Source of the DNA: Haloplanus sp. | GTDB lineage: Archaea > Halobacteriota > Halobacteria > Halobacteriales > Haloferacaceae | Reading direction: 5' to 3' | NCBI RefSeq assembly: GCF_028275055.1 | Contig: NZ_JAQCNJ010000039.1 | Span: 1-64,000, forward strand | DNA: 64,000 nt | Part shown: positions 15,189-21,409 of the stretch, in pieces | How positions within the stretch are numbered: the stretch's first letter is position 1 | How the letters are laid out: each line of letters opens with the position of its first letter | The notes under the pieces: generated by a model | What the model was told of the DNA's origin: nothing | The model's input: the letters and a program-made list of their open reading frames with translations, nothing else | Database searches by the model: none | Translations under genes and position numbers: made by a program

Positions 15189-16493
15189 ATGTCCGAGCAG
15201 ATCCAACAGGAACTCGATGTCGACCAGTTCACGCTCGGCCTCGTCGGTCCCGAACAGGAGTGGGCCGGGACGGTCGCCGACGGCGGGACGATCCGAACAC
15301 ACACGCCGCCGGCGTGTTGGGGGCCGATGATCACCCCCGAGTTTCGCGGGGGCCACGAGGTCACCCGACCCATCCGGGTCGAGAACGCCGAACCCGGCGA
15401 CGCGCTCGTCGTCCGGATCAGGGATGTGGAGGTAACGAGCGTCGCGACGAGTACCGGAAGCATGGCCGAACGCGAGGCGGCGTTCGGCGACGACCCCTTT
15501 GTCGACCACCGGTGTCCGGGGTGCGGGACGGAGTGGCCCGAAAGCGTCGTCGAGGGCATCGGCGAGAACGCGATCAAATGCGCGGAGTGTGGTGCCAACG
15601 CCTCCTCTTTCGGCTTCGAGTTCGGTTACACCGTCGCCTTCGACGACGACCGGTCGGTCGGCCTGACCGTCGGCGAGGAGGGGGCGACCGACCTCGCGGA
15701 ACGCGCCCGCGAGGCGACGGCGCTCCCCGAGAACTCCCGCCAGCACCCCATCCTCCTGTATAAGCCCGACGAGATACCGGGGACGCTCGGTCACCTCCGT
15801 CCCTTCATCGGCAACATCGGCACCACGCCGGCCCGGGAGTTCCCCGACTCGCACAACGCCGGCGACTTCGGCCAGTTCCTGATCGGCGCCGACCACGACT
15901 GGGGGCTGCCCGACGAGGACGCCCTCGCCGACCGCACCGACGGCCATCTGGACTCCAACGACGTGCGGCCCGGCGCGACGCTGATCTGTCCGGTGGAGGT
16001 CGACGGCGCCGGCCTCTACGTCGGCGACCTGCACGCGAACCAAGGCGACGGCGAACTCTCCCTGCACACGACCGACGTGAGCGGGCGGACAGAACTGGAG
16101 GTGGAGGTCATCAAGGACCTCGACATCGCCGGGCCGTTGCTTCTCCCCAACGCCGATGATCTGCCGGATATCGCGAAGCCGTACACGGACGAGGAGCGCG
16201 CGACGGGTGCCGAGTTGGCCGACCGGCACGGCGTCAACGAGGTTCGTGACGCCGCCCCGATCCAGGTGATCGGGTCGGGGGCGACGATCAACGACGCCAC
16301 CGACAACGCGTTCGACCGTGCGGGCCACCTGCTCGATATGAGCGAAGGCGAGGTCCGCGCCCGGTGTACGTTCACCGGCGGTGTCGAGATCGCGCGCCTC
16401 CCCGGCGTCGTCCAACTGTCCATGCTTGCGCCGATGGATCGGCTGGAAGACGCTGGCTTGGCCGACGCGGTGCGGGCACAGTACGACCGCTAA
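15189..16493 (+). CDS. acetamidase/formamidase family amidase
   Basis: A 434-residue FmdA/AmdA family protein that would hydrolyse formamide or short amides to ammonia and the acid. The typical beta-rich fold shows as IRVENAEPGDALVVRI, WGPMITPEFRGGHE and VCDLHxxQGDGE (here GDLHANQGDGELS). A four-cysteine pattern, Cys109/112 and Cys131/134, could hold zinc. The ATG at 15189 lies about 27-30 bases after the TTATTATTATTA element, so it is preferred over the GTG at 15168. The stop overlaps the convergent ubiquitin-like gene by four bases. Confidence 0.88.
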   Translation: MSEQIQQELDVDQFTLGLVGPEQEWAGTVADGGTIRTHTPPACWGPMITPEFRGGHEVTRPIRVENAEPGDALVVRIRDVEVTSVATSTGSMAEREAAFGDDPFVDHRCPGCGTEWPESVVEGIGENAIKCAECGANASSFGFEFGYTVAFDDDRSVGLTVGEEGATDLAERAREATALPENSRQHPILLYKPDEIPGTLGHLRPFIGNIGTTPAREFPDSHNAGDFGQFLIGADHDWGLPDEDALADRTDGHLDSNDVRPGATLICPVEVDGAGLYVGDLHANQGDGELSLHTTDVSGRTELEVEVIKDLDIAGPLLLPNADDLPDIAKPYTDEERATGAELADRHGVNEVRDAAPIQVIGSGATINDATDNAFDRAGHLLDMSEGEVRARCTFTGGVEIARLPGVVQLSMLAPMDRLEDAGLADAVRAQYDR

Positions 16494-16750
16494 CCGCCGC
16501 GCATCGCCGGAAACAACGCCACCTCGGCGTCCGGCGGGCAGTCGTCGTCAGGCGCGGCCCGTTCGCCGTTGACCGTAACGCGGACGCTCGGTCGGAGGGC
16601 ACCCGTTTCGTCCACCAGTTGCGACGCCGCGCGTGGGTACGCGTCGACGAACGCTTTCACGACGGCCTTGACGGTCCGATCGGTCGGATCGACGCTTGCT
16701 CGTTTCCCGCCGGTCGCCGAGCGAAGCGGTCCGTAGACGAGCAGTTCCAT
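16490..16750 (-). CDS. ubiquitin-like MoaD/SAMP family protein
   Basis: An 86-residue beta-grasp protein, MELLVYGPLRSATGG at the start and VALFPAMRGG at the end. The C-terminal Gly-Gly is what an E1-like enzyme adenylates, either for sulfur transfer to molybdopterin or tRNA, or for protein conjugation as with haloarchaeal SAMPs. The size matches SAMP1, whose tail is FPPVSGG. It is a single gene facing the formamidase. Which role it plays cannot be told from sequence. Confidence 0.82.
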   Translation of the reverse strand: MELLVYGPLRSATGGKRASVDPTDRTVKAVVKAFVDAYPRAASQLVDETGALRPSVRVTVNGERAAPDDDCPPDAEVALFPAMRGG

Positions 16751-16847: not shown

Positions 16848-17060
16848 ATGAGTACGGAACAGGAGTGTCTCGGCTGTGGCGTCGACTTCGACACAGACGA
16901 CGGCGTCTGCCCCGAGTGCGGTTGGGACCCCGCCGACTTTGCAGAACAGGGTCGCTACGGACTGGCGAAGTCAGGACACGGCGAGCCAAGCGACGACGGC
17001 GACGACGCCGACCGGTCGGGCTCCGTGGGGCCGCCGCCCGGCCCCGGCGGTCTGATTTAG
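16848..17060 (+). CDS. small zinc-finger protein
   Basis: A 70-residue protein starting MSTEQECLGCGVDF with CPECGW following, giving C-x2-C and C-x2-C knuckles about 11 residues apart, then an acidic, Pro/Gly-rich tail. A TTTTATG element at 16817-16823 lies 27 bases ahead of ATG 16848 and supports this start over the ATG at 16821. Such mini zinc ribbons are common in haloarchaea and probably act as adaptors or regulators. Its stop overlaps that of the next convergent gene (TTAG). Confidence 0.7.
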   Translation: MSTEQECLGCGVDFDTDDGVCPECGWDPADFAEQGRYGLAKSGHGEPSDDGDDADRSGSVGPPPGPGGLI

Positions 17061-17833
17061 AACGACGACAACGGCGGTCGGTCCTCGGCACGACGGGACT
17101 CGTGGAGCGCGTCACAGACCGAGCCTTGACCGCTCATGTTGACCCCGGCCGCTCGGGTCCGGTGGTGGACCGTCTCGAACGCCTCGGGACCGATTGGTTC
17201 GCCCGCCGGCGTCCGGAACAGTTCCGGGTGGTCGTCGTCGACGAGGCCGGTCGCGGCCGCCTTCTCCACGTACCGCTCCAGCGGGTCGGCGTCGACGCAC
17301 ACCCCGACCGCGCCCTCACGGAGCCACACGTGGGCGTTGTCGTTCTCGATCATTATATCGTCCCGCGTCAGGGCAACGATCTGGTCGCCGTCGAGGCCAG
17401 CATCGAGGAGCGCGCTGGTGGCGTCGTGTTGGCGGGCGAGGCGTGCCTTCTCGTCGAGTTCGGTACGGACCGGTTCGACGCCGCCCTCGGCGTCGGGGAA
17501 CGCCTCACCGAATGACAGCCCCTTGTTGACGCCGCGGTTGATCTCCCGTTCGTGCATATGCTCACGGAGTTCGATCGTCGCCTCACTCACCCCGTGCAGG
17601 CGTTCGATTTCGTCGCGGGCGTCGGTGGCCATCATCCACGCGAACGCCGGCGAACACCACGCCGTGGGGAGCGTCATGGCGACGTGTACCTCGTTGCCGT
17701 CGATTCCGATCTCGTCGATATACTCCAGTTCGACGATGGACGTGTCGAGTTCGGGGTCGGTGACGCGGTCGAGTCGTTCACGGATCCGCGCTTCGCTGAC
17801 CCCGTCCTCGCCGTCGCGTGTGTCGGCCGACAT
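17057..17833 (-). CDS. DUF59 (MIP18-like) protein of the di-iron monooxygenase accessory type
   Basis: A 258-residue protein. Residues 15-100 form a MIP18/DUF59 domain with DPELDTSIVEL and a cysteine in LPTAWCSPAFAWMM (Cys60). The extension REHMHEREINRGVNKGLSFGE, then a helical ELDEKARLARQHD segment, matches the longer DUF59 proteins that sit in bacterial propane-type monooxygenase operons rather than the short SufT/PaaD form. It starts five bases after the amidohydrolase stop, so the two are co-transcribed. It probably helps load iron or a cofactor on to a partner enzyme; this is inference from the family. Confidence 0.75.
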   Translation of the reverse strand: MSADTRDGEDGVSEARIRERLDRVTDPELDTSIVELEYIDEIGIDGNEVHVAMTLPTAWCSPAFAWMMATDARDEIERLHGVSEATIELREHMHEREINRGVNKGLSFGEAFPDAEGGVEPVRTELDEKARLARQHDATSALLDAGLDGDQIVALTRDDIMIENDNAHVWLREGAVGVCVDADPLERYVEKAAATGLVDDDHPELFRTPAGEPIGPEAFETVHHRTRAAGVNMSGQGSVCDALHESRRAEDRPPLSSF

Positions 17834-17838
17834 CGGTT

Positions 17839-18900
17839 TCAGTCGTCCGCGGGCGTTGCACTCCGCCCGTAGTGGTCGCCGAGGCCGAACTCCTTTGTCA
17901 CGGCGTCCTCGCGGAACTGGCGTTTCTTCTCCTCGATGTCGATGTCGTACAGGTCGGCGGCGTTCTCGCCCATGATCTTCTTTTTGATCTCTATGTCGAG
18001 TTCGACGCCGTACTCGTCGCGTTGCTCCTGGGTCAGTTCGGCGTTCATCACCACGTCGACAAGCCAGTCGGGGTTCCAGAGCGCGTAGTCGGAACCAAAG
18101 AGGAGGCGGTCCTCGCCCAACCAGAAGAGGAGTTCGCCCATGATCTCGCCGAACTTCCGGGGGCGGTGAACCGCCATGGGTGCGGCGACGGCGAGGCCGC
18201 CGTAGACGTTGGGCTCCTGTGCGGCGATCCAACAGAAGTCGTCGAGCCGTGGGAGGCCGACGTGTTCGACGACGAAGTTCAGTTCGGGGAAGGAGGTGGC
18301 GGCGTCGTCGACGTCGGCCACGTCGAAGGCATCGCGGTTCAGCGGGCGGATCGTCGGTCCCTTATGTGGGTGGATCTTGTCGATGCCGAGTTCGGCACAC
18401 TTCTCCAAAAAGCGGAACGACTCCTCGCTGTCGAGACGCCAGCCCTTCGAGTCGCCGTTCCACTCGGCGGTGTACAGTTTCACGCCCTCGATGTCGTACT
18501 GTTCTTTCTGCCGTTCCAGTTCCCGCAGGCCGGCCTCGCCGTCACGCGGGTCGAACCGCCCGTTGAGAACGAACCGCTCCGGATACCGCTCGGCCAGTTC
18601 GGCGTTGTCACCGATGGTGTTGAACCCCTCCGCGTAGAAGTCCTGCAGATACGTGGGCTGGAAGATACCCATATCCACCGCCGCGTTGCCGAACAGGTCA
18701 CCGGCCATCCGATCCGCGTCGTACTGCCGGTACTCCTCTAGGTCCCACTGTTTTTCCTCGGGGGTGAACGCCGTGTGGTAATCGTAGAAACACTGGATGA
18801 ACTGTTCGCCGCCCTCGTGTGTGATGTTCGGTTCGCTCGCGTCCCACAGGTGGAGGTGCGAGTCGATGACGAACACTTCCTCGCCTTCGTACTCGTACAT
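17839..18900 (-). CDS. amidohydrolase-2 family protein, monooxygenase-operon type
   Basis: A 353-residue TIM-barrel metal hydrolase. The metal motif is H15-L-H17 (DSHLHLWD), with IHPHKG, VVEHVGLPRL and FGSDYALWNP carrying the later ligands. The whole sequence, including QCFYDYHTAFTPEE and GVKLYTAEWNGDSKG, resembles the amidohydrolase found beside propane/phenol monooxygenase genes (mim/prm type) in actinobacteria. The start at ATG 18900 is set by a TATATA element at 18924-18929. Its exact reaction is unknown, and a structural role in enzyme assembly has been considered for this family. Confidence 0.8.
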   Translation of the reverse strand: MYEYEGEEVFVIDSHLHLWDASEPNITHEGGEQFIQCFYDYHTAFTPEEKQWDLEEYRQYDADRMAGDLFGNAAVDMGIFQPTYLQDFYAEGFNTIGDNAELAERYPERFVLNGRFDPRDGEAGLRELERQKEQYDIEGVKLYTAEWNGDSKGWRLDSEESFRFLEKCAELGIDKIHPHKGPTIRPLNRDAFDVADVDDAATSFPELNFVVEHVGLPRLDDFCWIAAQEPNVYGGLAVAAPMAVHRPRKFGEIMGELLFWLGEDRLLFGSDYALWNPDWLVDVVMNAELTQEQRDEYGVELDIEIKKKIMGENAADLYDIDIEEKKRQFREDAVTKEFGLGDHYGRSATPADD

Positions 18901-18998
18901 GCGGGAACATGTGAACATTCTTCTATATAACTCCATTACGATTATTTGCGATTATCGGTGGAGCAACATTTTTTACTGCCGGGGTGAAGCCGTCACGT
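18901..18998. promoter_or_regulatory. divergent promoter with direct repeats
   Basis: This 98-base region separates the amidohydrolase gene from the alcohol dehydrogenase gene. TATATA at 18924-18929 faces the amidohydrolase and TTTTTTAC at 18969-18976 faces the dehydrogenase; each is about 25 bases from its start. Between them CGATTAT occurs twice, at 18939-18945 and 18949-18955, ten bases apart or one helical turn, a layout typical of a regulator site. GAACAT is also repeated at 18905-18918. Shared control of the two transcripts is likely. Confidence 0.55.
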
Positions 18999-20039
18999 AT
19001 GCTCGCGGCACGACTCCACGAGTACACGGAGGAGATGAGCGAGGCACTCTCCATCGACGAGGTGGATCGGCCGACGGCCGACACGCCGGACGCCGTCGTC
19101 GTCGAGGTGGAGGGGGCCGGGTGGTGCCAGACGGACAACCACATCGTCGAGGGGATGTGGGCGGAGTACGCCCCGCAACCGCTCCCGATGACGCTCGGCC
19201 ACGAGAACGCGGGCACCGTCGTCGATGTCGGCGAAAACGTCGATATCGTCGACCCCGGCGATCAGGTGATCTGTCACCCGCACGTGACCTGTGGCACCTG
19301 CCGCCCCTGCCGCCTCGGCGAGGACATGTACTGCGAGAACGCCCGGTTCCCCGGGCTGACGACCGACGGCGGGTTCGCGGAGTATCTCGCCACAAACGAA
19401 CGCGCCGTGATCCCGTTGCCCGAGGGGGTCGATCCGGCGGAGATCGCGCCCCACGCAGACGCCGGGATCACGGCGTACCATGCGGTCAAAAAGGCGGTCG
19501 ACGAACTGAACCCTGGCGACCACGCCGTCGTCATCGGCGTCGGCGGTCTCGGACACATCGGCCTCCAGTGTCTCGACGCGACGAGCGCCGCGGAGATCAC
19601 CGCACTCGACCTGAAAGCCGAGGCCCGCGATCTGGCCGCCGACCTCGGAGCCCACCACGTCGTCGACCCGTCGAGCGCCGACGTGGCCGCGGAACTCGAC
19701 GCGATCACCGACGGCGTCGGCGCACGACAGGTGCTTGACTTCGTCGGCGCCGACGTGACGACCGGCTACGCCCCGGACATCACGGCCGCGGGCGGCGACC
19801 ACCATATCGTCGGTTACGGCGGCCACATTCACGAACCCGCACAGGCGCTCGTCGACGGCGAGTTCGACTACCGTGGGACGCTCGTTGGCCGATACGCCGA
19901 GCTACAGGAACTGGTCGCACTGGTCGAACGCGGCGACGTGGCTCTGCGGACCTCGCGGCACGACCTCGGCGACATCAACACCGTCGCCGAACGTCTCGAA
20001 CACGGCGAGATCGAGGGTCGTGCGGTGGTTATCCCCTGA
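18999..20039 (+). CDS. zinc-dependent alcohol dehydrogenase (MDR family)
   Basis: A 346-residue medium-chain dehydrogenase. Catalytic zinc ligands are Cys in GWCQTDNH and His-Glu in LGHENAG; structural zinc is bound by four cysteines in TCGTCRPCRLGEDMYCEN. The nucleotide fold shows as VVIGVGGLGHIGLQCL, with Asp in ALDLKAE favouring NAD. The ATG at 18999 follows a T-rich box, so it is chosen over an upstream ATG at 18984. Divergence from the amidohydrolase/DUF59 pair matches bacterial monooxygenase operons, where such an enzyme oxidises the alcohol product. Confidence 0.88.
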   Translation: MLAARLHEYTEEMSEALSIDEVDRPTADTPDAVVVEVEGAGWCQTDNHIVEGMWAEYAPQPLPMTLGHENAGTVVDVGENVDIVDPGDQVICHPHVTCGTCRPCRLGEDMYCENARFPGLTTDGGFAEYLATNERAVIPLPEGVDPAEIAPHADAGITAYHAVKKAVDELNPGDHAVVIGVGGLGHIGLQCLDATSAAEITALDLKAEARDLAADLGAHHVVDPSSADVAAELDAITDGVGARQVLDFVGADVTTGYAPDITAAGGDHHIVGYGGHIHEPAQALVDGEFDYRGTLVGRYAELQELVALVERGDVALRTSRHDLGDINTVAERLEHGEIEGRAVVIP

Positions 20040-20149: not shown

Positions 20150-21088
20150 TCACTCCACCGAGTCGAGTATCTCGACCTCCCCCGAGTTCGAGAACCGGTA
20201 GCGACGCCCGGTCCACTCGAACTCGTCGATACCTACGGCCACGATGATGACGACCGGAAGCACAAGCAATCCGGGGTACGCGTACAGGAAGTTCACCCGT
20301 CCGAGGCCGAACCGGGCGTACACGGCCGCGAACCCGACCGTCACCGCGACCGCTGCCCCGAGTGGAAACAACACGCCGCCGGCAAGGAACGCCACGCTGA
20401 GTACGATTCCCGGTAGCCACCTCCCGTTGACGCCACCGATGCGAGTAAACCGGACCAGTCGGTGACGGACGCTCCGGGCGTCACCGGGAACCTCGACGTG
20501 AGTCACCATCGACCCGACGGCGTGGACGTGTGGCAGACGCTGTGTCAGGAGGTAATCATCGCTCAGAACCTCCCGTAACTCCTCCACGAACTCCGACACC
20601 GGCACGGTCAACTCGGATCGCGTGAACACGACGCCACCGCCCCACGCGGTGTCTTCGACCCCGCCCAACTGCAGGTAAACCAGGAGCGTGAACAGGGCCC
20701 CGTACCACGGCTCGAACAGCCGCCACCAGCCACCTCCGGTAAAGAACGGAACGGCCGTCGCCGGGCCGTGTGTCTCGCCGGCGGCGACGAGCCGATCGAG
20801 CCAGTTCATATCCCGCTCGAAGTCGTCGTCGGTCCAGACGAACCGGTCGTGGCGGGCGGTGGCCATGCCGTGTGCGAGCGCGTTGGCCTTCCCCGAACAG
20901 CCGTCGGGCTCCCCGGCGGTCAGTATTTTGGCGTTCTCCGGTGGTTCGTGGCTCGCGACCGGATCCTCCTCGGCGTCACAGATGACGAGCAGTTCGTCCT
21001 CCGGGGTCAACTGCGCGGCCACCTGCTCACAGGCCGTGTTCCACTCGACCGTCGGCAACAGCACACTCACCGGGTCGCGATCTGACAT
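20150..21088 (-). CDS. membrane-bound glycosyltransferase, family 2-like
   Basis: A 312-residue protein with an N-terminal GT-A domain and C-terminal membrane spans. The Rossmann part begins VSVLLPTVEWNT, and WTDDDFERDMNWLDRLV carries the metal-binding DDD triplet at about residue 96. GVVFTRSELTVP and DDYLLTQRL supply the later GT2 motifs (ED and QxxRW equivalents). The last 100 residues contain three to four hydrophobic helices. It likely transfers a sugar from a nucleotide donor on to a lipid or surface acceptor. Start ATG 21088. Confidence 0.8.
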   Translation of the reverse strand: MSDRDPVSVLLPTVEWNTACEQVAAQLTPEDELLVICDAEEDPVASHEPPENAKILTAGEPDGCSGKANALAHGMATARHDRFVWTDDDFERDMNWLDRLVAAGETHGPATAVPFFTGGGWWRLFEPWYGALFTLLVYLQLGGVEDTAWGGGVVFTRSELTVPVSEFVEELREVLSDDYLLTQRLPHVHAVGSMVTHVEVPGDARSVRHRLVRFTRIGGVNGRWLPGIVLSVAFLAGGVLFPLGAAVAVTVGFAAVYARFGLGRVNFLYAYPGLLVLPVVIIVAVGIDEFEWTGRRYRFSNSGEVEILDSVE

Positions 21089-21164
21089 CGATCGTAGTCG
21101 GTGATGTGGCCGACACGACTTCAATATTGTTCGGGTCGTGTGAGAGCGGCCGCCACGTCTCATA

Positions 21165-21189
21165 CGGGGTTCGAACCCCCGTTTGGCCC
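21165..21189 (+). other. tRNA T-arm-like fragment
   Basis: Bases 21165-21181 read CGGGG, TTCGAAC, CCCCG, an exact five-base-pair T arm with a canonical T loop, followed by TTTGGCCC, which could be a 3' acceptor strand. No GGCCAAA 5' strand, D arm or anticodon arm is found upstream, where the glycosyltransferase gene lies. It is not a full tRNA gene. It could be the 3' end left at an integration site, or chance. Confidence 0.25.
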
Positions 21190-21409
21190 GGACACACCCC
21201 ATCGCGATCCGACCGCTTCCGTTGTCCGGACGCGCGTCGTAGCGTAGCGGGTCGTGTACCACCCGGCCGGAGACGGCGGGACGTCGGTAGAGCTAACGGC
21301 ATCGGTGCCTATGGCCGACCATGTCGATTCCGAGAGCACGAACCGTCCGGTGCCGACACGCGACGGCCCGCGTCGCCGCTCCGACCGCTCACGACACGAC
21401 GGAACTGCC

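Follow-up and report, generated by a model that had tools for sequence, protein, structure and literature searches.

We investigated a three-gene locus in a 64,000-nucleotide stretch of DNA from Haloplanus sp. (assembly GCF_028275055.1, contig NZ_JAQCNJ010000039.1, positions 1 to 64,000; hereafter the window), which encodes an Amidohydrolase-2 enzyme (AMH), a protein with an N-terminal DUF59 domain (D59) and a zinc-dependent alcohol dehydrogenase (ADH). The locus is probably a self-sufficient catabolic cassette, with D59 as a dedicated partner of AMH, and not the remains of an operon for a soluble di-iron monooxygenase (SDIMO). An earlier note on this DNA, made from the sequence alone, had offered two explanations for the genes, a monooxygenase encoded elsewhere in the genome or a separate function not yet described; the first fails in the survey below, and the second is the better of the two.

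In the sampled haloarchaea, the cassette and the SDIMOs do not share genomes

The haloarchaeal survey drew 391 genomes evenly from the class. D59 was found in 123 of them and the SDIMO hydroxylase family PF02332 in 4, with no genome in common. The PF02332 search works: it found the 4 haloarchaea and at least 10 Actinomycetota, although it matched none of 14 control genomes. No SDIMO gene was found in the window, as the earlier note had said, and PF02332 is also absent from the whole source draft genome, a metagenome-assembled genome of 2.31 Mb and 79% completeness; three trio-bearing relatives in the genus, all 99% complete, lack it as well. The four haloarchaeal SDIMO loci gave no AMH or D59 match. 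The zero genome overlap, together with SDIMO loci that hold neither gene, indicates that the SDIMOs of this class do not use the AMH-D59 pair and that the pair needs no SDIMO. The proposal that the trio is the accessory part, for maturation or downstream steps, of an SDIMO whose genes lie elsewhere in the genome draws on the presence of the same gene families in bacterial SDIMO operons and on the incompleteness of the draft. However, with PF02332 in 0 of 123 haloarchaeal carriers, 99%-complete genomes included, with haloarchaeal SDIMO operons devoid of AMH and D59, and with trees that separate the haloarchaeal proteins (see below), it is extremely unlikely and, at the level of the clade, already refuted.

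The four haloarchaeal genomes with SDIMO genes (L095, L096, L097 and L098) carry a toluene-4-monooxygenase-like set. Read gene by gene, L097:12244-19097 encodes an extradiol dioxygenase, TmoB, a Rieske ferredoxin, MmoB/DmpM, the beta and alpha subunits and an XylR_N/V4R activator, and is likely an archaeal aromatic-degradation operon. Beside it lies an array of five SDR genes that resemble one another, close to two IclR-like regulators (L097:2222-6775).

Conservation of the three genes

Among 58 sampled haloarchaeal loci, AMH and D59 were present together in all 58 and ADH lay within 4.5 kb in 53, being divergent in 47, co-directional downstream in 4 and upstream in 2. Besides the trio no gene family was constant, none occurring in more than about a quarter of these loci; an IclR regulator adjoins a few. 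Where both genes were called, AMH and D59 overlap by one base in most loci (38/54), which suggests translational coupling; in the window, 5 nt separate the AMH stop codon from the D59 ATG.

Stand-alone trios were also found in Thermomicrobium, Thermoflexus, Chloroflexota, Bacillota and one Poribacteria contig. Sampling across the phylum Chloroflexota gave 14 trio-family AMH loci, each with the long D59 and an ADH. The Thermomicrobium roseum trio (IclR-D59-AMH-ADH, TRD_RS11610-11625) has the same three genes and no SDIMO, but forms one co-directional run with D59 first, whereas the window presents AMH-D59 with a divergent ADH. Among 149 Actinomycetota genomes, trio-family AMH occurred with an SDIMO in 7 and without one in about ten. 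Many genomes thus have the pair without an SDIMO, with ADH as the constant partner, which goes against the proposed link to a monooxygenase.

The likeness of AMH and D59 to SDIMO-operon genes, on which that link had been built, is nevertheless real and extends over the full length of the proteins. The bacterial operons have the order alpha-reductase-beta-coupling-AMH-D59-GroEL, in which the AMH and D59 homologues are fixed and ADH is often found. On annotated plasmids of Aminobacter, Caballeronia, Paracoccus, Ponticoccus, Gemmobacter and Bradyrhizobium, AMH and D59 come after the genes for hydroxylase, reductase and coupling protein, with GroEL behind them, and an ADH is usually close by. In 66 SDIMO-linked bacterial loci, D59 was present in 66, GroEL in 64 and ADH, somewhere in the locus, in 61; an adjacent coupling protein and GroEL-like chaperonin were found in 64-65 of these 66, compared to 0 of the 58 haloarchaeal loci. 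Propane/acetone-type operons (e.g. MimABCD) contain a homologous AMH (~55-60% identity), a D59 that is co-linear over the whole length, extension included, and a related ADH (44-48% identity for most of those tested). The window trio, in contrast, lacks the hydroxylase, the reductase, the coupling protein and the GroEL-like chaperonin, its ADH is divergent, and its AMH and D59 form their own branch in both trees. In alignments of Thermomicrobium, haloarchaeal and SDIMO-operon members, identity to the Thermomicrobium protein is 47-67% for AMH and 29-37% for D59. The window ADH is 49% identical to the Thermomicrobium trio ADH and 31% to another haloarchaeal ADH. A study of seeps labels the amidohydrolase and DUF59 genes in its SDIMO operon figures and gives no function for them (PMC9213486).

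The AMH tree (77 rows) and the D59 tree (75 rows), both quick searches with no bootstrap, agree in setting all haloarchaea apart from the other sequences by a single branch (SH-aLRT 100). Both haloarchaeal proteins lie outside the SDIMO-linked branches, again at odds with a monooxygenase link, and the SDIMO label requires 7 changes within bacteria. Rooting the AMH tree on paralogous DUF59-paired amidohydrolases was rejected, because one branch became very long and the root fell, implausibly, within Alphaproteobacteria; as this outgroup root is untrustworthy, the claim is limited to the haloarchaea not being inside any SDIMO-linked group. Pairwise distances of AMH, D59 and ADH correlate at 0.50-0.56 over 48 haloarchaeal loci, with a permutation maximum of 0.30, which fits joint inheritance but also simple shared ancestry.

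AMH: family, fold and predicted metal site

AMH matches PF04909 (Amidohydro_2, E 2.6e-48), and its AlphaFold model (pLDDT 89.8) presents the barrel of this family. It exhibits the metal-site pattern H15-x-H17 / H179 / H213 / D271, with K141 also conserved; H15, H179, H213 and D271 occur in 38 of 38 aligned rows and H17 in 37. We take the H-x-H of beta 1, the histidines of beta 5 and beta 6 and the aspartate of beta 8 to correspond to the ligands of ACMSD, and, judged by its sequence, AMH appears to be a PF04909 enzyme with an ACMSD-type metal site. The nearest fold is that of the uncharacterised BB4693 (Z 25.4), followed by dihydroxybenzoate and 5-carboxyvanillate decarboxylases (Z ~21) and ACMSD (Z ~19). 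A single-sequence search of solved structures gave no match, and profile searches returned BB4693 and weak matches only. The non-hydrolytic enzymes of PF04909 (these decarboxylases, ACMSD, LigJ and LigY) share with AMH the TIM-barrel (Z 18-21) and the H-x-H / H / H / D pattern, but identity is ~20% or less, and we know of no DUF59 partner for any of those characterised. The piperine amidohydrolase PipM was considered as a precedent and rejected, being of a different amidohydrolase superfamily subtype with DUF59 unmentioned.

The place of AMH beside oxygenases would be accounted for if AMH were an ARO-type oxygenase (AibH2, PtmU3, SfbO) working with iron or Mn/Fe, with its metals loaded by D59. 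AROs are PF04909 members (PMC10811679, PMC7782822), DitZ (8uyr), an amidohydrolase fold crystallised with manganese, is among the AMH fold matches (Z 18.6), and a neighbouring DUF59 or NifU gene suggests that the metal is iron. However, the diiron ligands of AibH2 are D25, H27, H211, E265, D337 and H340 (PMC7782822), and its beta-6 glutamate (Glu265) corresponds, in a weak alignment of 8sm8 to the paralogue profile, to the invariant His213 of AMH, while beta 8 reads D-Y-A-[LI] in nearly all AMH members and not D-x-x-H. No recurring Rieske or reductase family appeared in the 10-kb haloarchaeal neighbourhoods, in which not every neighbour is annotated. AMH does not appear to present the AibH2-type diiron ligand set, and on these ligand positions its membership of the AROs is improbable.

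D59: a DUF59 domain with a recombinase-like extension

D59 matches PF01883 (FeS_assembly_P/DUF59, E 3.2e-16) and continues into a C-terminal extension of ~150 residues. Within the DUF59 domain C60 is invariant in 46 of 46 sequences and H92 is also invariant, as are C240 and R247 in the C-terminal domain. In the model (pLDDT 92.9), the DUF59 domain folds like CIAO2B/SufT (CIAO2B Z 11.2, TTHB138 Z 9.8). SufT, PaaD and CIAO2B have the same fold and conserved cysteine as D59, which differs from them by its tyrosine-recombinase-core-like C-terminal domain and its amidohydrolase partner. Under the NCBIfam equivalog cut-offs, D59 reaches 39 of 180 bits for PaaD_haloarch and 34 of 143 bits for SUF_assoc, which rules it out as a SufT or PaaD equivalog.

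Residues ~125-234 adopt the first half only of the tyrosine-recombinase core fold (Cre/XerD/XerH, Z 8-10), the C-terminal domain giving Z 9.8 over 95 residues with Cre and 8.3 with XerD; values below ~8 are unremarkable according to the tool's own guidance. Additionally, the C-terminal profile matched that of 21 haloarchaeal integrases with an hhalign probability of 82.9%, control pairs remaining below 1%, and this agreement of sequence profiles besides the fold score argues for more than a common arrangement. Pfam alone barely sees the domain (1 of 46 members, E 0.11), so that the claim is drawn from the fold and profile-profile comparisons. The recombinase catalytic box I arginine is absent, the aligned position being T, S, D or A in 40 of 46 sequences (D in the window), and the box II histidine of Cre, XerD and XerH is not conserved in D59.

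The AMH-DUF59 pairing in wider relatives

In Actinomycetota and Chloroflexota, the AMH-clade loci examined, which belong to three subfamilies, had an adjacent DUF59 gene, upstream or downstream, in 40 of 40 cases, compared to 0 of 8 for more distant, generic amidohydrolases; in Actinomycetota the break between paired and unpaired amidohydrolases is sharp (E 1e-42 vs 1e-35). AMH paralogues of 23-30% identity, directly followed by a single-domain DUF59 gene, are present in Natrinema, Natronorubrum, Haloarcula, Rhodococcus, Sphingopyxis and Bradyrhizobium. H15 and D271 are lost in 7 of 7 aligned paralogues, whereas the trio family keeps the full ligand set, which makes the AMH clade chemically diverse. 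In one rhizobial AMH subfamily, represented by six plasmid records (Shinella, Pararhizobium, Ensifer), a NifU-domain gene occupies the DUF59 slot. As two unrelated Fe-S-assembly domains stand in the same slot beside the same enzyme, we infer that the amidohydrolase is the client, and D59 most likely serves AMH, and not any oxygenase, as a dedicated iron/Fe-S or metal-loading partner.

At L200:3489-4789, a rhizobial amidohydrolase gene is overlapped by a NifU-domain gene. Three loci (L193, L195 and L196) hold a second haloarchaeal AMH paralogue, with H15 and D271 lost, and a short DUF59 gene, adjoining AMP-binding, thiolase, SDR and aldehyde dehydrogenase genes.

ADH contains both PF08240 and PF00107, as expected for a zinc alcohol dehydrogenase of the medium-chain type, and its structural-zinc cysteine set is readable in the sequence. 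Its nearest solved structure is Aeropyrum pernix ADH 1h2b (E 1e-96), followed by R. ruber ADH-A. Its constancy as third member, in 53 of 58 haloarchaeal loci and most stand-alone bacterial trios, would be explained if D59 and AMH were maturation factors for ADH; this is very improbable, as such an ADH is missing next to the AMH-DUF59 pairs of the other two subfamilies and zinc alcohol dehydrogenases are normally active on expression, with no helpers.

Proposed function

AMH would be a metal-dependent C-C lyase, hydratase or hydrolase of PF04909. The DUF59 domain probably supplies AMH with iron or an Fe-S cluster, takes part in its maturation in another way, or remains attached to it as a subunit; the recombinase-like domain of D59 is probably a docking module. 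The divergent NAD-type ADH may oxidise a small alcohol or ketol, and AMH would then process the carbonyl product; the presumed substrate of the cassette as a whole is thus a small ketol or alcohol, which is probably first oxidised and then cleaved or hydrated. Acetol/methylglyoxal-type C3 compounds, suggested by the acetone context of the bacterial operons, are a first guess, and haloarchaea would meet them without making them by hydroxylation.

In an acetone-grown actinobacterium, proteomics gave 6.1% for the operon ADH and 3.2% for the amidohydrolase, as abundant as the monooxygenase subunits (PMC7176365), which suggests that both are enzymes downstream of acetone hydroxylation. MimABCD reportedly needs MimG to be active in a heterologous host (PMC13221752, citing Furuya 2013), where AMH and D59 are not named as requirements; activity once MimG is added fits AMH and D59 not being oxygenase factors.

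The cassette could instead serve detoxification rather than growth, removing methylglyoxal, acetol and similar 2-oxo compounds that arise from haloarchaeal glycerol/dihydroxyacetone metabolism. DJ-1/PfpI or gloA genes adjoin the pair in Peribacillus and Rhizobium N324, and IclR-type regulators stand beside some haloarchaeal, Thermomicrobium and Thermogemmatispora trios. However, the bacterial contexts are few, and no such gene is constant in haloarchaea, so that detoxification is unlikely.

Several points weigh against a self-sufficient catabolic cassette with D59 as partner of AMH. An ancestral SDIMO linkage may have been lost later, given the unreliable outgroup root, and AMH and D59 may be a fixed gene pair because they work in one pathway, and not because D59 matures AMH. 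ADH is not nearby in 11 of 25 bacterial loci without an SDIMO, several of them on short contigs. The acetol idea is an analogy from the bacterial context only. To our knowledge, the metals of the known PF04909 enzymes are usually Zn or Mn and are loaded without known helpers. Finally, the main precedent for a DUF59 gene adjoining a di-iron oxygenase is PaaD, which is needed in vivo for PaaABCE (PMC4498308).

Gene coordinates and neighbouring genes

The three genes of the earlier note were all correctly placed and described, with Pfam support for each (Table 1). Their Pfam matches, full-length conservation in more than 100 genomes and high-confidence structure models support that they are coding. 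The ATG codons at 18900 and 17833 are likely the true starts of AMH and D59, and that of ADH is likely the ATG at 18999, not the listed GTG further upstream at 18984. A TATA-like box for AMH (CTATATA, 18923-18929) lies ~26 bp upstream of its ATG, which makes a leaderless mRNA plausible.

Table 1 Features of the locus, in window coordinates
Feature	Position	Strand	Evidence
ADH: zinc-dependent medium-chain alcohol dehydrogenase	18999..20039	+	PF08240/PF00107, PDB 1h2b match
AMH: Amidohydrolase-2 TIM-barrel enzyme	17839..18900	-	PF04909, AlphaFold model, fold matches
D59: N-terminal DUF59 + C-terminal tyrosine-recombinase-core-like domain	17057..17833	-	PF01883, fold and profile comparison
Divergent ADH/AMH intergenic region, 98 nt	18901..18998	.	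sequence read directly
Small zinc-ribbon open reading frame, 70 aa, converging on the D59 end	16848..17060	+	kept in 15 sampled loci

The zinc-ribbon reading frame overlaps the 3' end of D59 and has a weak, below cut-off match to PF23455 (DUF7129); it is a conserved neighbour in a subset of loci and probably stands outside the cassette. An acetamidase/formamidase-family (FmdA_AmdA) gene (15189-16493) adjoins the cassette, and a SAMP1-like ThiS protein (16490-16750) scores exactly at the NCBIfam SAMP1 cut-off. On the other side, 20150-21262 encodes a family 21/2-type glycosyltransferase that matches the mycofactocin glycosyltransferase MftF weakly, below the cut-off.

Significance

The gene family is already known by sequence. 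As far as checked, three points are apparently new: that the cassette occurs independently of SDIMOs in about a third of the haloarchaea sampled, that amidohydrolases are paired with DUF59/NifU across the clade, and that D59 has an extension of recombinase fold. A search of the open-access literature, with most subscription journals outside it, found no paper joining these three points, none relevant on DUF59 with an amidohydrolase and none on DUF59 with a tyrosine recombinase.

A wider proposal is possible, and we hold it tentatively: the AMH clade, with its three DUF59 subfamilies and one NifU subfamily, may consist of enzymes that depend on iron, are possibly non-hydrolytic and each require an Fe-S-assembly-type partner of their own. 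In the trio, a tyrosine recombinase core would have been reshaped into a docking domain of this partner. SDIMO operons would have taken up the finished module, so that the AMH and DUF59 genes of propane/acetone monooxygenase operons would serve the oxidation product rather than the oxygenase.

The amidohydrolase and DUF59 genes of short-chain alkane/acetone monooxygenase operons have so far been drawn in figures with no function. Genomes that have the module and no oxygenase show that these genes are not intrinsically for oxygenase maturation, and they make the question testable in genetically tractable haloarchaea. The DUF59-recombinase-fold fusion is also unusual in bringing a fold of DNA recombination into metabolism. 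If it is true that DUF59 proteins metallate amidohydrolase-fold enzymes, the client range of SufT/CIAO2 would extend beyond classical Fe-S proteins and PaaA.

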